IMG/VR virus record: IMGVR_UViG_3300005529_000081
Span: 1-29,296 of that record
DNA length: 29,296 bases
Reading direction: 5' to 3' (one strand)
DNA from: a virus
A model generated the notes under the pieces. It worked only from the letters and a program-made list of their open reading frames with translations. It had not been told where the DNA came from and did not search any database. This document shows, one piece after another, positions 1-29,296 of this stretch (positions within the stretch are counted from its first letter, which is position 1; every line of letters begins with the position of its first letter). The translations under genes were made by a program, and so were the position numbers.

Positions 1-119
1 GCTAGCGCGACGGTAGGGCGGTTGCACTCCGGCCGTCGGGCGAAATCAAAGGGCAGCCTAAGCTTGTAGATGCTCATGCGGTGCGGCTGCGGACGCGGGT
101 TCGATTCCCGCCGCCTCCA
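1..119 (+). ncRNA. ssrA: tmRNA 3' portion, probably host ssrA (5' part outside window)
   Basis: This is the 3' end of a transfer-messenger RNA. It shows the conserved tail of the tRNA-like domain: an AAGCTTGTAGA segment (60-70) matching the E. coli AAGCATGTAG region, then GGACGCGGGTTCGATTCCCGCC, which contains a perfect 5-bp T stem (GCGGG/CCCGC) with a TTCGATT loop, and a 3' acceptor strand CGCCTCC followed by A. No CCA is encoded. The upstream bases (1-57) contain CGACGG/CCGTCG complementarity, as expected of a late pseudoknot. The tag reading frame and 5' acceptor strand lie before the window. I take this copy as the host gene because the prophage integrase end abuts it. Confidence 0.88.
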
Positions 120-388
120 TTCTCCCTGCTAATAGCGATTTCGGATTGGAACAATTCGGCGAAGAGAAGCTCGGCATCAAACCGGGCCGCCTCGGTGGCG
201 AACTCGCACGCTTCGCGAGCCTGGTCGATCGTTGCCCCGTTGCGGAGCATGACCGTGGCGCGCGCCGCGGACGCGTGGGTCGCACCGGCCGACACGAGGA
301 TGCGGGCCATCTGCAGCTCGACGGGCGTCAAGCCAAGGGCCGAGGCGGCATGGCCGCCCCTAGCGCCCGTGTCGTTCGTCGCGCTCAC
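74..388 (-). CDS. Hypothetical phage protein whose ORF runs into attL
   Basis: I do not recognise the family of this 104-residue product. The GTG start is chosen because it overlaps the stop of the previous gene as GTGA, and a GGGAG lies 9 nt upstream. Longer readings exist but would overlap that gene. The central part looks helical, with Ala-rich stretches around the motifs LTPVELQMARIL and DQAREACEFATEAARFDAELL. The last residues, including GGGGNRTRVRSRTA, are antisense to the T-arm of the tmRNA. The native C-terminus in the circular phage could therefore depend on where the att crossover falls. It is the last gene of the repressor-integrase operon. A role in integration or excision is only positional inference. 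Confidence 0.6.
   Translation of the reverse strand: MSATNDTGARGGHAASALGLTPVELQMARILVSAGATHASAARATVMLRNGATIDQAREACEFATEAARFDAELLFAELFQSEIAISRENGGGGNRTRVRSRTA
90..120 (+). other. Probable attL core (tmRNA T-arm to 3' end)
   Basis: Tyrosine integrases often recombine at the T-arm and 3' end of tRNA and tmRNA genes, leaving the gene intact. Here the tmRNA ends exactly where the phage-like gene cluster begins, and the integrase operon runs toward it. The matching attR, which must be a direct repeat, is not in the window. The only similar copy, at 29042-29072, is inverted and belongs to a different tmRNA, so the core boundaries cannot be fixed from this sequence. Confidence 0.6.
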
Positions 389-1334: not shown

Positions 1335-2393
1335 CTAGACCTCAGCCTCGAACGAGTGCAGAAGAGCCATCGCGAGGTCGGCCGTGTCGAGCTGCGAGTA
1401 CCGGTCGGTCGAGCTGATATCGGCGTGTCCGAGCAGCAGCTTCGCGAGCTTCAGATTGTGGGAGGAGCGCAGGAGCTCGGTCGCCGCCGTGTGTCGTCCG
1501 CGGTGCATGTTCATGCCGGCGGTCGTGCCCTTCTCGACGAGGCCCGCGCGGACGAGGCACCGATACCACCACAGATGGGCGAGCTTCCCGGTCGGCTGGA
1601 TCGTGTGCTTCCGACGCGTGATCTCCGCGTAGCCCTGCCGGCGGTCAGCGAAGGTCACGAACTCGGTCGCGTCCTCGTCTGGCACCTTCATCCGCCTGGT
1701 GTCTTGTCGGTATAGGAGCCAGTGCTCGGGCTGTAGCTGCGCCTCGATCTGCAGGAGCCCGAGCTTCAGCCAGAAGTCGTCGTCGACGATCGGGATCTCG
1801 TAGATGCGGCCACCCTTCGTCCTGCACGTGAACAAGCGCCGTTCGACGTCGAAGTCCTTCGGCTGCGCGTTCACCAGGCCGGACCGCCGGACGCCGTACC
1901 GGAGCACGAGATCGGCGAGGCACCAGTCGGCCGGATACGCCTGGGCCGCGAGGATTGAGGAGACGATCGACGGCATGAACGTGTCGATGCGTGTGTCGCG
2001 GATCTTCGGCCGGCTCAACGCCCGCGCAGGATTCCCGTGCAGGCTGCGCTCGCGGACGCCCCACTCGAAGAAATCAACCCAGACCGACCTGACCTTCGCA
2101 CGCGTGCGAGCCGACCGGTCGCCCCAGAAGTGATCCCAGCACTCACGCAGCCGCTCCGTTCCAACCGGCGGCGCGAAATCAGCGAGCTCGAGGTCAGCGA
2201 AATACAGCGCCAGGCGGGCGAGGATGGCCTCGTAGTCGCGCAGTGTCTCTGCGGTTGCGCCCCACTCGTTCTTCTTCCAGCGGTAATAGCGCGCGACGTC
2301 GAGGCCGAGTGGGGTCGCTCGATAAGAGCGATCCTTCACGGCGTCGCGCATCATCCGTGCCGCGTCCGCCAGAGTCAACGTCGCCTCGGTCAC
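1335..2393 (-). CDS. int: Tyrosine-type site-specific integrase
   Basis: A 352-residue phage integrase that catalyses recombination between phage attP and the bacterial attachment site through a covalent 3'-phosphotyrosine. An N-terminal SAM-like core-binding domain (about 40-130, with the motif VWVDFFEWGVRERSLHGNPA) precedes the catalytic domain. Visible catalytic residues are Arg169 in YGVRRSGLV, Lys193 in RTKGGRIYEIP, His297 and Arg300 in MHRGRHTA, His323 in LLGHADISST and Tyr332 in DRYSQL. Length is normal. The GTG start overlaps the upstream stop as GTGA, with AGGAG about 6 nt before. It lies about 1.2 kb from the tmRNA end and is translated toward it, as expected for integration into ssrA. 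Gly172 replaces the acidic residue common after the first Arg. Confidence 0.93.
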   Translation of the reverse strand: MTEATLTLADAARMMRDAVKDRSYRATPLGLDVARYYRWKKNEWGATAETLRDYEAILARLALYFADLELADFAPPVGTERLRECWDHFWGDRSARTRAKVRSVWVDFFEWGVRERSLHGNPARALSRPKIRDTRIDTFMPSIVSSILAAQAYPADWCLADLVLRYGVRRSGLVNAQPKDFDVERRLFTCRTKGGRIYEIPIVDDDFWLKLGLLQIEAQLQPEHWLLYRQDTRRMKVPDEDATEFVTFADRRQGYAEITRRKHTIQPTGKLAHLWWYRCLVRAGLVEKGTTAGMNMHRGRHTAATELLRSSHNLKLAKLLLGHADISSTDRYSQLDTADLAMALLHSFEAEV

Positions 2394-3400: not shown

Positions 3401-4229
<829 letters not shown>

Positions 4230-5586: not shown

Positions 5587-6107
5587 CACGCGGCCTCAGC
5601 GGATTCGTTGTGCGTACCGGCGAGGGCCCGCGGGCTCCCGGCACGCACAACGAGCCTGTACGACGACACCGCCCTGGTGAATCCGCGCCGGCCAGGGCCA
5701 GGGATCGGATCCCGCTCGGTGCGGTTCTCGATCTTGTGGCCGCGGCGACGCAGCTCGGCGGCGCGCGAATGAACCGTGAGGCCGACACCGCGATCGCGGA
5801 AGCTGCGACCGAGGATCTCGTTCAGCGTGTGCCACTCGCCATCAGCGAGCGCGGACAGCAGAAACTCACAGTCGCGTGCGCCACGCCTAGCGGTCGCCTC
5901 GCTCGACGGGACGAGATCGGACGAGTTGAAGTAGGCGCCGCGCACCGACCTCCCCTCCGGTGCCGAGACGCGCTCAAAGCGGCCCTCGATGAGCACCCGC
6001 TTCACGTCAGCGTCGCGAGCACTGACGCCCCTGCCGATCTCAGGCACCGTCGCCGGGCCATTGCGATGCAGAAACGCAGCGACCTCGGCTGGCAGCGTCG
6101 CCCTCAC
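5586..6107 (-). CDS. Double winged-helix DNA-binding protein
   Basis: A 173-residue product with two helix-turn-helix-like halves. Residues about 4-50 (VAAFLHRNGPATVPEIGRGV, then ADVKRVLIEGRFERV) look like a winged helix. Residues about 80-125 (LLSALADGEWHTLNEIL, then SRAAELRRRGHKIENRTE) look like a second, with the AELRRRGH-IE turn typical of phage winged-helix replication or regulatory proteins. The GTG start forms GTGA with the repressor stop. It is the second gene of the operon, so it probably acts with the repressor or in early regulation. Replication initiation is an alternative. Confidence 0.7.
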   Translation of the reverse strand: MRATLPAEVAAFLHRNGPATVPEIGRGVSARDADVKRVLIEGRFERVSAPEGRSVRGAYFNSSDLVPSSEATARRGARDCEFLLSALADGEWHTLNEILGRSFRDRGVGLTVHSRAAELRRRGHKIENRTERDPIPGPGRRGFTRAVSSYRLVVRAGSPRALAGTHNESAEAA

Positions 6108-6406
6108 AGGTTCGCGACCTCTTCGCGGAGGATCTGACGGACACGCACGCGGAGGTAGTCGTCGAGCGTCAACGCGGCGGCCTCCTCGTCGTCGTCCGAC
6201 TCGACCGAGCCGGTGAGAAAGAAGTCGAGCTCGTGCCCCGTCGCCTTAGCGATCGCGACGACGCTATGAACGCGCGGCTCGTTCTGACCGTTCTCCCAGC
6301 GGATGATGTTCCGCTCCGAGGTCTCGATCGACCGGGCGAGTTGGCCCTGCGTCAGCCCGGCGCGCTGCCGAGCCTCGCGGATCCGACCTCCAATCAGCCG
6401 TCCCAT
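6104..6406 (-). CDS. XRE-family phage repressor
   Basis: A 100-residue protein with a classic five-helix HTH at residues 7-60: GRIREARQRAGLTQGQLARSIETSERNIIRWENGQNEPRV, split across helices 1-4, with the recognition helix near SERNIIRWE. An acidic linker (SDDDEEAAA) leads to a short C-terminal helical tail, probably for dimerisation. There is no peptidase domain, so self-cleavage induction like lambda CI is not expected. The ATG lies one base after the predicted transcription start with no ribosome binding site, so the mRNA is probably leaderless. It is the first gene of the long leftward operon and is divergent from the HTH gene at 6501. Confidence 0.85.
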   Translation of the reverse strand: MGRLIGGRIREARQRAGLTQGQLARSIETSERNIIRWENGQNEPRVHSVVAIAKATGHELDFFLTGSVESDDDEEAAALTLDDYLRVRVRQILREEVANL

Positions 6407-24472: not shown

Positions 24473-25843
24473 TTAGAAGGTCGGCGGAACGAGCCCGGTG
24501 CCGGTGACGGCACCGGAGCCGGCCGGGTAGCGGCCCGCGGTGAACGCGGCGTACCCGTATGCGACGAGCTGCGTCTGCAGCTGATTGCCCGCCTGCTGCT
24601 CGAACGCGAGCGTGATCGGCGCGTCCTCCTGCTCCCACAGGTGGACGATCCGGGACGCCATGACGATGATGCTGTCCTGGTTCGTACCGGCGCCACCGTT
24701 CGTGGGGATGTTCGCGTCGATGAAGACCGGCAGGCCGTGCATCCGGCCGACGAAGCCGTAGCCGGCAGCCTCGCCGCCGGCGTCGACCGTGACTGCGTAG
24801 TTCTCGCCGCTGACGCCGAACAGGGGACGGTTCTGCGTATCGAGCGCGGCCTCGAAGAAGCCCCAGCGCCGCGGGTGCATGACGATCTTGTCGGCGTAGT
24901 AGCCGAGACCGCCGACCGCGGTGTTGATCTGCTGGATGACGTCTGCGATCTTCGGCCACACGCCGGCGACGGTCGCCGTCGACGAGACCGATGACGAGAT
25001 CGAGCCGGTCTGCAGCAGGCCGAGGATCGTGCCCGACGTGCCGGCGCCGTTGAGCGCCCCCGAGTCGAGCGCCGCGTGGTAGCGGGCGATGAGATCCTCG
25101 AACAGGATCGCCTCCGAGTAGGAGGCCCGCTCGAGCGTCTGCCGCGACACCGGCGAGTAGCCGGCGATCGTGCGGACGTTGACGGTCAGGTCGGTCTCGG
25201 TCGGATCCTGCGTCGACACGGCCGTGCTCTCCGTCGCCTGCGCAGCCGCGGAGGTTCCCTGCGTCAGCCGCGGGACGATCAGCGACATGCCCGTCTCGGG
25301 CAGCGGATCGTCGCGGTTGCACTGGTCGGCGAAGACGCGGCCGTTCCGGCTGGCCTTCGCGTACAGGTTGACGAGGTACTGCGGCGGGATGATCCCGCCG
25401 AGCGTGCCCGTCGCCACGGCGAACTGCTCGCGGTCGACGCCGAGCTTGTCCGCGTACCGGTCGATCTCGAACTCGTGGTGCTTCGCGAGACGGCCGGCCG
25501 CCGACGGGTCGCTCTTCATCTGCGACATGTAGAGGTCGCGGAGGAACGAGCGGCTCTTCGGCGTGTACATGTCCGGCTCGTCGACCGTGATCGGAGTCGT
25601 AGCGCCGGCGGGAAGGTCTTCCTTCTTGAAGCGCTCCTTGGAGCGCTGCAGTGCGGCGTAGTCCTCGCGGGCGGTCTTCGCGGCCTCGGCCTTCGCCTCG
25701 GCTGCGGTGACGGCCTCGCGGGCGAGCTTCACCGTGTCGGCGTCCGCGTCGTCGGCGAGCGCCTCGAATGCGGTGATCGCCGCGTCGAGATCGTCGCACG
25801 AAGCGTTGAACGCCTCGATGAGCTCCTTGAGCTTCTCGTCCAT
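24473..25843 (-). CDS. HK97-family major capsid protein
   Basis: A 456-residue capsid protein. An N-terminal coiled-coil delta region (about 1-75, LKELIEAFNASCDDLDAAITAF) is likely removed by the prohead protease. The rest shows HK97-fold signs: GGIIPPQYLVNLYAKASRNG, the E-loop-like region, LPETGMSLIVPRLTQGTSAA, RQTLERASYSEAILFEDLIA, IVMHPRRWGFFEAALD and the final DAPITLAFEQQAGNQLQTQLV. An AAAGGGGG lies 9 nt before the ATG. It follows the protease by 36 nt, the usual order. Confidence 0.95.
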   Translation of the reverse strand: MDEKLKELIEAFNASCDDLDAAITAFEALADDADADTVKLAREAVTAAEAKAEAAKTAREDYAALQRSKERFKKEDLPAGATTPITVDEPDMYTPKSRSFLRDLYMSQMKSDPSAAGRLAKHHEFEIDRYADKLGVDREQFAVATGTLGGIIPPQYLVNLYAKASRNGRVFADQCNRDDPLPETGMSLIVPRLTQGTSAAAQATESTAVSTQDPTETDLTVNVRTIAGYSPVSRQTLERASYSEAILFEDLIARYHAALDSGALNGAGTSGTILGLLQTGSISSSVSSTATVAGVWPKIADVIQQINTAVGGLGYYADKIVMHPRRWGFFEAALDTQNRPLFGVSGENYAVTVDAGGEAAGYGFVGRMHGLPVFIDANIPTNGGAGTNQDSIIVMASRIVHLWEQEDAPITLAFEQQAGNQLQTQLVAYGYAAFTAGRYPAGSGAVTGTGLVPPTF

Positions 25844-25879: not shown

Positions 25880-26707
25880 CTACGTGGTGCGAAGCCGGGC
25901 GAACGTGCGCCGCATCTCGGCGACCTCGGACCGGCGGGCTGCGCCGCCTCCCGCCACCACTTCCGGCGGGCTGACAGTGCTCGCGCCTCCCTCGTCGGGC
26001 TGACGCTGATGGCCGCCTAGCGCAACCGCGCCAGGCTGACCGGGGAACGCCGCTGCGAACTGCTGCAGCGAAGAAATCGTCTGGGAGAAGACGCCCTGCG
26101 GGCAGGCGCAGACGTCGAAGAGCGTCTTCACCGTGAGGATGCGCCGGAGCATGATGTCGGGCCCCTCGTCGTTCTCGGTGATCGTCGTCTCGTCGCTGCC
26201 GCAGACGAACGCCATCGACGCCTGCTTGATGACCTTGTCGCGCATCTTCACGGCGAGCGCTACACCGTCGGGGTCGTCACGTGACACCTTGGCGAGGTAG
26301 CGGAGGCCGTGCGCGTCGACGCTGAGCTGCAGCGAGCCGGGCTCGCCAGCCGGGACGTCGGTTGCCGCCACGGCGCGGTTCATGTCGTGGCCGAGGTTGA
26401 AGTGGACGACTCCGTCCGGAGCGTTGAGCGCCTGCGTGCTGAGCACATCGTCGAATGCGGATGGGTCGATCTCGAGGATGATCCGCAGCCACTTCGAGTC
26501 GAGGTAGATCGCCTGCTGGTTGAAGACGGCCGCGTAGCCGCTCATCGTCCACGTGTTGTCCGGGTTCGCGCTCGGGTCGCGCACGTCGACGTTCGTGAGC
26601 GGCACGATCGCGGAGAAGAGCTCGCCAGCCGCCGAGGCCGGCTGCTCGAGCGCCGCGGTCGCGAGCGCGTCGGCGTCGGGGACGAGCTCGGACTCGATCA
26701 GAGACAT
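25880..26707 (-). CDS. HK97-type prohead protease (S78)
   Basis: A 275-residue serine protease that matures the capsid. Motifs are GYAAVFNQ (57-64), LRIILEIDPSAFDDVL, VVHFNLGHDMN with the catalytic His (107), GLRYLAKV, KQASMAFVCGSDE with the nucleophile Ser (164) and TLFDVCACPQGVF. The N-terminal 40 and C-terminal 60 residues are extra and may tether it to the scaffold. The ATG overlaps the portal stop by one base (TGATG). Confidence 0.92.
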   Translation of the reverse strand: MSLIESELVPDADALATAALEQPASAAGELFSAIVPLTNVDVRDPSANPDNTWTMSGYAAVFNQQAIYLDSKWLRIILEIDPSAFDDVLSTQALNAPDGVVHFNLGHDMNRAVAATDVPAGEPGSLQLSVDAHGLRYLAKVSRDDPDGVALAVKMRDKVIKQASMAFVCGSDETTITENDEGPDIMLRRILTVKTLFDVCACPQGVFSQTISSLQQFAAAFPGQPGAVALGGHQRQPDEGGASTVSPPEVVAGGGAARRSEVAEMRRTFARLRTT

Positions 26708-28134
26708 CAGTGTCCTCCTGTCACGCTGGCGAGGTGTTCATCGACGGCTCGGCGAGCGACGTCGCGGATCTGCTCCATCTCGCGCTTCGTCTGCACGGCA
26801 AGCGAGAGCTGGTGGAAGTACGCGCGCCGCTGCGCGAGCGTGTCGTCCGGCGAGTCAGACGGCGGCTTGAGCGGCTTCATCGGGACGGCGTTCGGGGCGC
26901 CGCCGACCGGGGTGATCTGCGGGATCTGCCCGATGCCGTCCGGGTACGGCTCGTAGCCGAGCTCGTGCCGCGCCTCGTCGGGCAGCAGCACCCCGGACTG
27001 AACGAAGCCCTGCAGGATCGTCGCCTCGGTGAGGAGGTCGCCGCGGACGAACCCGCTCGTGTCGAAAGCGGGATACATGCCGAGGCTGCCGTTCGTCTCG
27101 GCGCGAAGAAGCGCGGACGTTCCGAAGAGCTCCTGGTCGCTGTCGAGCGCCGACTCGAGCCGCTCGAGCTCGGGCCCGAGCCCGAACCGCAGCCACGTCA
27201 TCAGGTCTTGCTCGAGGTTCGGCGTGCCGCGCTGCTGCACGGAGACGCCGAGGAGGTTCGCCGGCACGCCCATGATCCGTGACGCGTCCATGACGGTCAG
27301 CTGCGCCATCTCAACGAACGCGGCGTCCGCAGCGGTCATGCCGATCGGCGTGATCTTCGCGCCGCCGCCGACGACCGCGGTCGTCTCGCCCTCGGTGCCC
27401 TCGTAGTTCGACCGCCAGGACTCGCGCCACTGGTCGGCGGATTCCTTCGACACGTTCGCGGGGAACTCGAGCGCGACCTGCAGCGCCGTCCCGCGCCGCC
27501 ACATGCGAGCCTCGTGCCGCTGCCGGCCGACCGGACCGGCGAGCGCGTCACGGAAGACCTCGATCGGGGATGGCGCGACGAGCTGGCCGCCTTGCCCGTG
27601 GCCGCGGATATGCAGAATCGTGTCGGGCCCGAGGTTGCGGTAGAGCCCGGTGCCCTTGCCGACAGGATCGACATAACCGGGCGACGTCTGGACGGTGTAG
27701 GTGCCGTCGTCATTGACGCCGACCTGATCCGGGTGCAGCGCCCACCACTCGACGATCTTCCCGCCGTCGGCGTTCTTCCAGAGGTACGCGTTGTTGCGGT
27801 AGGCGAGCGATTCCTCGACCGTCTCCCAGAACGTGAAGCGTGTCTGCACGGGGTTCGGCCGGTTCCGGAAGAGCTTCGCCTGCCACACGTTGTCGACGCG
27901 GCCACGCATCGGACCGTCGCCACGCCAGCAGTAGAGATGCAGCGACGCGATCGCTTCGGCACGCAGCCGTGCGGCGCGGTGGATCGCGGGGATGCCGCGC
28001 ATCTCGCGCTCGCCCATCCGCGACTGGATGCTGCGCAGGCCGGTGTAGCCGTACCGCACCATGTTCGTCAGCGCGAACGAGCTCGCGAAACGCTCGATGG
28101 TGAGGCTCTGGCCGCTCTTCGTCCGGATGATCAC
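26707..28134 (-). CDS. HK97-family portal protein
   Basis: 475 residues from a GTG forming GTGA with the previous stop; longer readings would overlap that gene. Portal motifs are VWQAKLFRNRPNPVQTRFTFWETVEESL, split before AYRNNAYLWKN; LYRNLGPDTILHIRGHG; FPANVSKESADQWRESW; AFVEMAQLTVMDASRIMGVP, then ANLLGVS; and GFVQSGVLLPDEARHELGYEP. The portal dodecamer is the DNA entry and exit vertex and docks the terminase. No terminase gene precedes it within the window. Confidence 0.95.
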   Translation of the reverse strand: MIIRTKSGQSLTIERFASSFALTNMVRYGYTGLRSIQSRMGEREMRGIPAIHRAARLRAEAIASLHLYCWRGDGPMRGRVDNVWQAKLFRNRPNPVQTRFTFWETVEESLAYRNNAYLWKNADGGKIVEWWALHPDQVGVNDDGTYTVQTSPGYVDPVGKGTGLYRNLGPDTILHIRGHGQGGQLVAPSPIEVFRDALAGPVGRQRHEARMWRRGTALQVALEFPANVSKESADQWRESWRSNYEGTEGETTAVVGGGAKITPIGMTAADAAFVEMAQLTVMDASRIMGVPANLLGVSVQQRGTPNLEQDLMTWLRFGLGPELERLESALDSDQELFGTSALLRAETNGSLGMYPAFDTSGFVRGDLLTEATILQGFVQSGVLLPDEARHELGYEPYPDGIGQIPQITPVGGAPNAVPMKPLKPPSDSPDDTLAQRRAYFHQLSLAVQTKREMEQIRDVARRAVDEHLASVTGGH

Positions 28135-28583
28135 GAGTACGCGCTCCGCGTTCCGACCTTGACCTGCGCGAGCACCGCTTCCTTCGTCCGGTGATCGGCG
28201 CACAGCGGGACGTGCTCGGGCCAGTGGTCAGCGTTGTATCGGGCGCCACCCTTTGTCGGCGTGTCGCAGCGCTTCTCCTCGACGACCGCCTCGCAGCCGT
28301 GCCAATTCGGGAAGACGTCGTCGCTGAAGGCGAGAGTTTCTTCGACCTTGGCGAGGCACCACTGCCGGTAGCAGTCCTCGGCCTCTTCGCGGGTCGCGTG
28401 CGGTGCGTGCGCCTTCCCGAGCGTCGGCTCGCCGACCTCGTAGCCGTATTTCTCGGCGTCCTCTTCGGTCGCTGGCGGCCCAGGATCGCGGCAGCACTGG
28501 TGCGTCCAGATCCGGTCGTCATTCTGCACCGTGAAGTGCCAGCCTGACCCGTCGGAGAGCTTGCGTGCTTCCGCGTAGTTCAT
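28131..28583 (-). CDS. Conserved actinophage protein with Cys/His pairs
   Basis: 150 residues: MNYAEARKLSDGSGWHFTVQ at the start, THQCCRDPGPPAT, HATREEAEDCYRQWCLAK, NWHGCEAVVEEKRCDTPTKG and VPLCADHRTKE. The MNYxEAR opening, the HATREEAE segment and the paired Cys/His occur in a conserved family of actinophage proteins of unknown role. A zinc site is likely. ATGA and GTGA overlaps tie it to both neighbours. Confidence 0.75.
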   Translation of the reverse strand: MNYAEARKLSDGSGWHFTVQNDDRIWTHQCCRDPGPPATEEDAEKYGYEVGEPTLGKAHAPHATREEAEDCYRQWCLAKVEETLAFSDDVFPNWHGCEAVVEEKRCDTPTKGGARYNADHWPEHVPLCADHRTKEAVLAQVKVGTRSAYS

Positions 28584-28789
28584 GCTCGCGCGACCTTCCG
28601 CGCGGTGTCACGGGCCCAGCGTCGGCGGACAGCACGGTTCAGGGGCATGACGAGCATCCGGTCGAAGTCGATCCGGTCGCACCGCTGGCATTTCGTGAGC
28701 TGGACGCGGCGGCCGCGGCCGTCGAAGGTCTCGATCTCGTCGCGGTGTCCGAAGATCCGGCACCGGAGCCGTGCGATCCTCTTCGTCAC
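28580..28789 (-). CDS. Small basic zinc-knuckle protein
   Basis: 69 residues from GTG in a GTGA overlap. It has LRCRIFGHRDE, then LTKCQRCDRIDF: a Cys/His half site and a CxxC, spaced as in a small zinc ribbon. The tail is Arg-rich (LNRAVRRRWARDTARKVARA). Nucleic-acid binding is plausible. Family not identified. Confidence 0.65.
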   Translation of the reverse strand: MTKRIARLRCRIFGHRDEIETFDGRGRRVQLTKCQRCDRIDFDRMLVMPLNRAVRRRWARDTARKVARA

Positions 28790-29019
28790 CGGATGACCTC
28801 GTAGAACGCGACACGGTCGGCCGGGATGACGAGGAGCTGCGAGTCGAGCTCGGCCGGGTTGCCCTCGACGCTCGTGATCAGCACCGGGAGCGCGATCGCG
28901 TATTCCCGGCGGCGCTTCGCGACGAGGAGGCCTTCGACGGAGGGAAGCTGCATCCCTTCGTGCGGGTCGATCAGGTGCATCCGCACGCGCCGGGCGCGCT
29001 TCACGCGCAGCTTCATCAT
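28786..29019 (-). CDS. Small hypothetical phage protein
   Basis: 77 residues. A strong GGAGG sits 7 nt before the ATG at 29019. The start is basic (MMKLRVKRARRVRMHLIDPH), the rest beta-like (GLLVAKRRREYAIALPVLIT, SQLLVIPADRVAFYEVI). It is the first protein gene to the left of the second tmRNA, 23 nt away, and starts the visible late operon. Confidence 0.65.
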   Translation of the reverse strand: MMKLRVKRARRVRMHLIDPHEGMQLPSVEGLLVAKRRREYAIALPVLITSVEGNPAELDSQLLVIPADRVAFYEVIR

Positions 29020-29042
29020 CGAGGAACCTCCGGTGAAGGGGA

Positions 29043-29296
29043 TGGAGCCGGCGGGAATCGAACCCGCGTCCGACCAGGCCGTGCAGGAGCGCCGTCTACC
29101 AGCTTTCCGGGGCGGCGTGTGCCGCCTCCACCAGGGCGCCGTCTTTCCCGGCCCGAGTCAGCTCGTCTCTCCGAGCCGTCCGCCGTGTAGGTGCTGTTAC
29201 GCGGCGACCAGGACGTTCGAGTTCGCGAACGCCTCGAGCTCTGCGAGCCCGGCGGCGACGTACTCGGCCGTCACGGAACGATCGTTGTCGTTCGCA
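29043..29296 (-). ncRNA. ssrA: Second tmRNA (5' part beyond window), possibly phage-encoded
   Basis: On the minus strand the sequence ends in AAGCTGGTAGACGGCG, then GGACGCGGGTTCGATTCCCGCC and the acceptor strand CGGCTCC with A at 29043. The T stem and loop are identical to those of the first tmRNA, but the rest differs. Upstream lies a tag frame starting GCG AAC GAC (Ala-Asn-Asp) and ending TAA. Only 154 nt separate this stop from the 3' end, against about 240 in E. coli, so the pseudoknot region is compact; hairpins GCTCG/CGAGC and GGCGGC/GCCGCC are visible. The resume codon lies at the window edge, and the 5' tRNA half is outside. Confidence 0.85.
29197..29295 (-). other. tmRNA tag reading frame, 32 residues
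   Basis: The frame starts ANDNDRSV, continues through AEYVAAGLAELEAFA and ends SNVLVAA before TAA. The AND start is the classical tag opening and the VLVAA end resembles the LAA degron recognised by ClpXP. Thirty-two residues is much longer than the 10-15 usual in bacteria. The preceding bases that set the resume codon lie outside the window. Confidence 0.75.

Follow-up and report, generated by a model that had tools for sequence, protein, structure and literature searches.

A tmRNA gene with a 32-residue tag among the packaging genes of a putative temperate actinobacteriophage, and its scaffold in unrelated phages

About 2.3% of phage genomes (402 of 18,146) encode a tmRNA (PMC9004378), and these genes have so far been counted but scarcely explained. 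The complete virus record analyzed here (the window; 29,296 bases, both ends open) carries tmRNA sequence at each end, which raises the question of whether the right-hand copy belongs to the phage or to its host, and of what it might do for a phage. On the minus strand, positions 29043–29296 correspond to the 3′-terminal 254 nt of a tmRNA gene that runs off the contig on its 5′ side, an assignment based on the tag frame, the alignment and a complete homologue in a related contig (L026:2385–2727). As the initial annotation had proposed, this tmRNA comes in addition to, and differs from, the one at the left end: the two have in common only a T-arm/acceptor stretch (31 bp, 97% identity), in inverted orientation.

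The tag frame (29197–29295, minus strand) runs from GCG at 29295 to TAA and encodes ANDNDRSVTAEYVAAGLAELEAFANSNVLVAA before the stop; the anticipated length of 32 residues is thus recovered both by frame reading in the window and by the ARAGORN tag in L026, and 29 of the 32 codons, as read from the sequence, end in G or C. The post-tag part is, as had been noted, short (154 nt), and comprises on the same strand a 7-bp hairpin (29159–29178; two-sided changes at 3 pairs in the relative L052), a second hairpin of 8 bp (29109–29129; two-sided changes at 2 pairs), the 3′ strand of a long P2 stem (29071–29103), whose 5′ strand is off the contig and whose pairing is seen in the relatives L026, L060 and L052, the T-arm GCGGG-UUCGAUU-CCCGC (29051–29067) and, finally, the 3′ acceptor strand CGGCUCC with discriminator A (29043–29050), whose U70 has G3 as its partner in the relatives with a complete gene. 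The gene does not encode CCA, and the post-tag part with its two supported hairpins has little room for the three pseudoknots of a PK1–PK4 series. The window copy receives no ARAGORN call and falls below the Rfam gathering threshold, with a sub-threshold RF00023 match at 29040–29100 (29.8 bits), because its 5′ half is absent.

A complete version of the gene is found in L026, a 4.1-kb contig that we reached by two independent routes, a tmRNA 3′-end pattern and the portal protein, which is 92% identical to that of the window. Its 343-nt tmRNA combines a G3:U70 pair, a resume codon and a 32-residue tag with an LVAA end; in the Rfam covariance scan that the initial annotation had suggested, it matches RF00023 over model positions 1–374 (53.3 bits, E 6e-18), and ARAGORN places it at 2385–2727 with the tag ANENDRSVTDEYVAAGLAELEAFANSNVLVAA followed by a stop. 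Its post-tag part is 97% identical to the 154 nt of the window. Two genes that read as HNH and small terminase (terS) genes are followed in L026 by the large terminase gene terL, which ends at 2289, 95 nt ahead of the tmRNA, and then, beyond the tmRNA, by a 77-aa gene, a 68-aa gene and the portal gene. The window has, all on the minus strand, the 77-aa gene of unknown function 23 nt past the tmRNA (28786–29019; 98.7% identical in L026), the portal protein (26707–28203; phrog_12, E 9e-66) and the major head protein (24473–25843; phrog_2263, E 1e-48). The terminase expected further to the right is therefore present in this relative, and the expectation that the tmRNA sits inside the phage is likewise borne out, with phage genes flanking it on both sides. 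Since L026 has a complete copy between terL and the portal operon, we regard the tmRNA as phage cargo rather than host DNA. Its initially proposed position holds in that it lies next to the portal operon, but not in that it precedes the whole late region. The location at the extreme end of a metagenomic contig could also suggest an assembly chimera or a fusion of host ssrA with phage DNA; the probability of such an artifact is negligible, as the junction recurs in the independent contig L026, where phage genes flank it on either side. The right tmRNA was also considered as an attR and ruled out, given its inversion relative to the left copy and its embedding among phage genes in L026.

Comparison with further relatives indicates that the tmRNA was inserted into the phage, because the terL homologues of L031 and L032 directly abut the 77-aa gene, with no space for a tmRNA. 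At the same position L028 and L037 have about 1.9 kb; in L037 (5670–7599) this terL-to-portal gap contains two long genes that, judged by eye, resemble ATP-grasp and glycosyltransferase genes. The site between terL and portal thus appears to be an accessory slot, as relatives hold there either nothing or other cargo genes. When the records of the 80 terminase relatives, many of them fragments, were scanned over their full extent, a tmRNA passed the Rfam cut-off only in L026, and the other portal relatives (L028–L037) yield none with Rfam or ARAGORN; such rare carriage, in roughly one of 80 terminase relatives, argues that the tmRNA is dispensable. The tag pattern has no match in the collection of genome contigs and matches L026 only in that of viral contigs, and nucleotide similarity of the tmRNA to named phages or plasmids does not extend beyond the T-arm. 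Among named phages, the capsid and terminase relatives are mostly actinobacteriophages (34–43% identity), which points to an unsampled actinobacterium as the probable host.

The same RNA scaffold recurs in unrelated phages. The tmRNA of L060 (tag GNDHMDRSASDLTFPKEWAREYDLVAA, 27 residues; RF00023, 50.2 bits) starts 10 nt past a tRNA-Met(CAU) call, and that of L052, a record identical to L007 (tag ANSFEHASVSTSLSREFDLAAAA, 23 residues; RF00023, 54.5 bits), is missed by ARAGORN; both match the whole Rfam model above its gathering score, and both genes lie upstream of the respective terminase genes. L060 and L052 have portal (phrog_104), capsid (phrog_283) and terminase (phrog_9) types in common, and neither shows tblastn similarity to the terL or portal of the window type. 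After the tag, the L060 RNA is 92% identical to that of L026 and 81% identical to that of L052, and its greater closeness to L026 suggests horizontal movement of a tmRNA cassette. Between L026 and L060, identity is 84% before the tag and 77% over the first ten codons, drops to 45% in the tag body, with an additional 18-nt in-frame gap, and returns to 94% at the DNA level over the LVAA end and stop. With 84–92% identity outside the tag and 45% in its middle, the scaffold has been conserved whereas the tag body has been replaced. The family thus offers a natural experiment, in which near-identical RNA scaffolds carry different long tags in unrelated phages, and one of its members is found within the packaging genes of a temperate phage with an integrase beside host ssrA. 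A further pattern match, L059, was rejected as a scaffold carrier, as it is protein-coding DNA without a tmRNA. We also observed a CAU-anticodon tRNA with an unusually short D-arm region directly upstream of the tmRNA in both L026 (2313–2380) and L060 (1293–1361); ARAGORN and Rfam detect it, weakly, in L060 only, and it may form a tRNA-tmRNA cassette with the tmRNA in both contigs.

The shared scaffold bears on whether the RNA is kept functional. The acceptor GGGGCCG/CGGCUCC with G3:U70 is complete in L026, L060 and L052, and the window shows its 3′ strand with U70. Across seven helices, 50 pairs are paired in 98.2% of cells (n = 4 sequences), and two-sided changes occur at 5 pairs compared to a shuffled mean of 1.4, a level reached by 2 of 500 shuffles, with 0–1 in slid controls. 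Helix pairing with compensatory changes in these four sequences, in agreement with the independent Rfam model, supports a real tmRNA without proving it. A resume codon opens a tag frame with a hydrophobic, Ala-rich C-terminus (GCG...GTCGCCGCGTAA, tag end LVAA and stop); the sequence ahead of the resume codon, UCAAAU in L026 and ACAACU in L060, fits only weakly the preferred AUAG/AUAA tetramer (PMC4236655), and the L060 tag begins with Gly. The gene could alternatively be a captured relic, acquired by imprecise excision and drifting without function: ssrA often serves as an integration site, an origin of phage ssrA by imprecise excision has been suggested (PMC9004378), and tag bodies differ strongly. 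We nevertheless consider such drift unlikely, as compensatory changes keep the stems, conservation extends to the acceptor, the T-arm and the tag end, the frame stays open with in-frame indels over three tag types, and the tmRNA is not adjacent to the attachment site.

That site probably lies at the other end of the window, where positions 1–122 (plus strand) contain the 3′ portion of a separate tmRNA of ordinary type (RF00023, 70.8 bits as a truncated match); the leftmost 119 nt are most plausibly host ssrA sequence at the junction created by integration. A tyrosine integrase (1335–2393, minus strand; phrog_1, E 2e-24; PF00589) adjoins this partial tmRNA, whose T-arm and 3′ acceptor strand are complete. 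A 28-nt core, ACGCGGGTTCGATTCCCGCCGCCTCCAT, at positions 93–120 spans the 3′ end of ssrA and is common to L145, where it lies ~570 nt past an integrase 64% identical to that of the window, in the same relative orientation. L145 has no ordinary tmRNA body ahead of the core, and its copy, a T-arm/acceptor sequence at about 3478–3510 beside the homologous integrase, may be an attP or a tRNA-like end. An exact ssrA pattern has no match in the genome or viral contig collections. As side observations, L145 begins (1–500) with a long run of GGCAAC/GGCATC-type hexamer repeats near its integrase, and the window encodes a helix-turn-helix repressor-like protein (6104–6406, minus strand; phrog_2328, E 2.5e-14), which fits a temperate phage.

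By analogy with tRNA-dependent lysogeny (PMC10865867), integration might break host ssrA and the phage copy might substitute for it, as the initial annotation had envisaged. The integrase beside partial ssrA, the phage's possession of its own ssrA, and the established tRNA version in actinobacteriophages, where temperate phages such as mycobacteriophage Fionnbharth likewise pair an integrase at an RNA gene with a phage copy of that RNA class, would all accord with this. In the tRNA version, however, integration over a core of ~8–17 bp leaves the host gene unrestored (PMC10865867), whereas here the T-arm and the acceptor 3′ strand both fall within the 28 nt common to the window and L145, so that a functional 3′ end is retained and integration should rebuild host ssrA, the 5′ half of which is off the contig. 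The RNA is also carried in other contexts by phages of the L060 and L052 type, and the table of the tRNA-dependent lysogeny paper contains no tmRNA case (PMC10865867). We therefore judge such a replacement role decidedly unlikely. The prophages CP4-57 of E. coli and CP4So of Shewanella resemble the present phage in their integration at the ssrA 3′ end, but differ in that ssrA is damaged on excision there and, in the accessible portion of that source, no tmRNA of their own is described (PMC10107115).

Given the RNA architecture, reading frame, phage location, occurrence in unrelated phages and conserved scaffold with replaced tag body that are established at the level of sequence, we favor as the probable reading a phage-encoded active tmRNA, carried as cargo of a temperate soil actinobacteriophage between terL and the portal operon, pointing in the direction of the late genes, and tagging chains on ribosomes that it would rescue late in infection. 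During lytic growth the tmRNA would most likely be co-transcribed with the packaging genes, matured as a tRNA would be, and charged with alanine by host AlaRS via G3:U70. It presumably relies on host SmpB, because the window genes that were searched include no smpB; SmpB would load the charged tmRNA on ribosomes stalled at broken mRNA, the stalled chain would gain Ala plus the 32-residue phage tag with its LVAA end, and the tagged chain would be passed on to an AAA+ protease of the host, either ClpXP or a related enzyme. The longer tag could conceivably act as a longer degron. Relaxed constraint and phage-specific routing are both compatible with a long, replaceable tag body. We tentatively entertain, at low probability, a mobile tmRNA cassette (in two cases with tRNA-CAU just upstream) with conserved scaffold and exchanged long tag body, by which each phage would direct stalled chains to its own protease or adaptor route, independent of the host tag. 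A related proposal is that the phage copy serves counter-defence by replacing a host tmRNA cut by a defence toxin, or that its tag routes chains to a protease other than that used by the host tag: the variable part is the tag body while the scaffold is kept, and a chromosomal tmRNA-cleaving toxin is known in HigB of M. tuberculosis (PMC3912914). Variable tags are, however, also expected if only rescue matters, and E. coli survival needs rescue, not degradation (PMC8012679), and we find this proposal quite unlikely. The family makes it testable whether a phage tmRNA serves ribosome rescue alone or also steers proteolysis.

Compared to the one-piece tmRNA of RF00023, the phage RNA has the same G3:U70 acceptor, T-arm, tmRNA-type D-loop, long P2 stem, resume codon, tag frame and post-tag helices, and differs in its 32-residue tag, its 154-nt post-tag part and scores of only 50–55 bits. 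The initial annotation had considered a phage tmRNA placed before the portal genes with an extended tag to be new; 32 residues, roughly threefold the usual length, is indeed extreme, but lies inside the published range of 8–35 (PMC8012679, PMC2862035), the commonest length being 10 (PMC11915505). Phage tmRNAs are already known, and phage tags of 20–28 residues can be read or are annotated elsewhere, so neither feature is new in kind. The annotated tags of Gordonia phage Mareelih and of EniyanLRS have 28 and 22 residues, respectively, and ARAGORN gives a tag of 20 residues in Streptomyces phage BillNye. The tmRNAs of large actinobacteriophages (Gordonia Forzavirus Mareelih and Boopy, Wildcat-type EniyanLRS, Streptomyces Loccivirinae) are thus phage-borne RNAs of standard form, several with long tags, but they are found among tRNA genes in 78–134-kb genomes, unlike the present gene, which sits between packaging genes in a phage with an integrase, and they show no blastn similarity to its scaffold. 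The window tag shares an EAFANS stretch with the Mareelih and Boopy tags (shuffle p 0.002–0.003 before correction for 11 comparisons), which is only suggestive of homology with the Gordonia tags. In a set of many-tRNA phages (L010, L020, L024, L047–L050 and Phage Phass-1, L163), tags seem to have 23–24 residues, such as DNDMSVVMIHPAFAAFMAERVAA, by manual reading, where ARAGORN gives a different tag or none for the L010-type contigs and Phage Phass-1; standard tools overlook or misread phage tags. The 32-residue tags of the window and L026 are the longest among those measured here.
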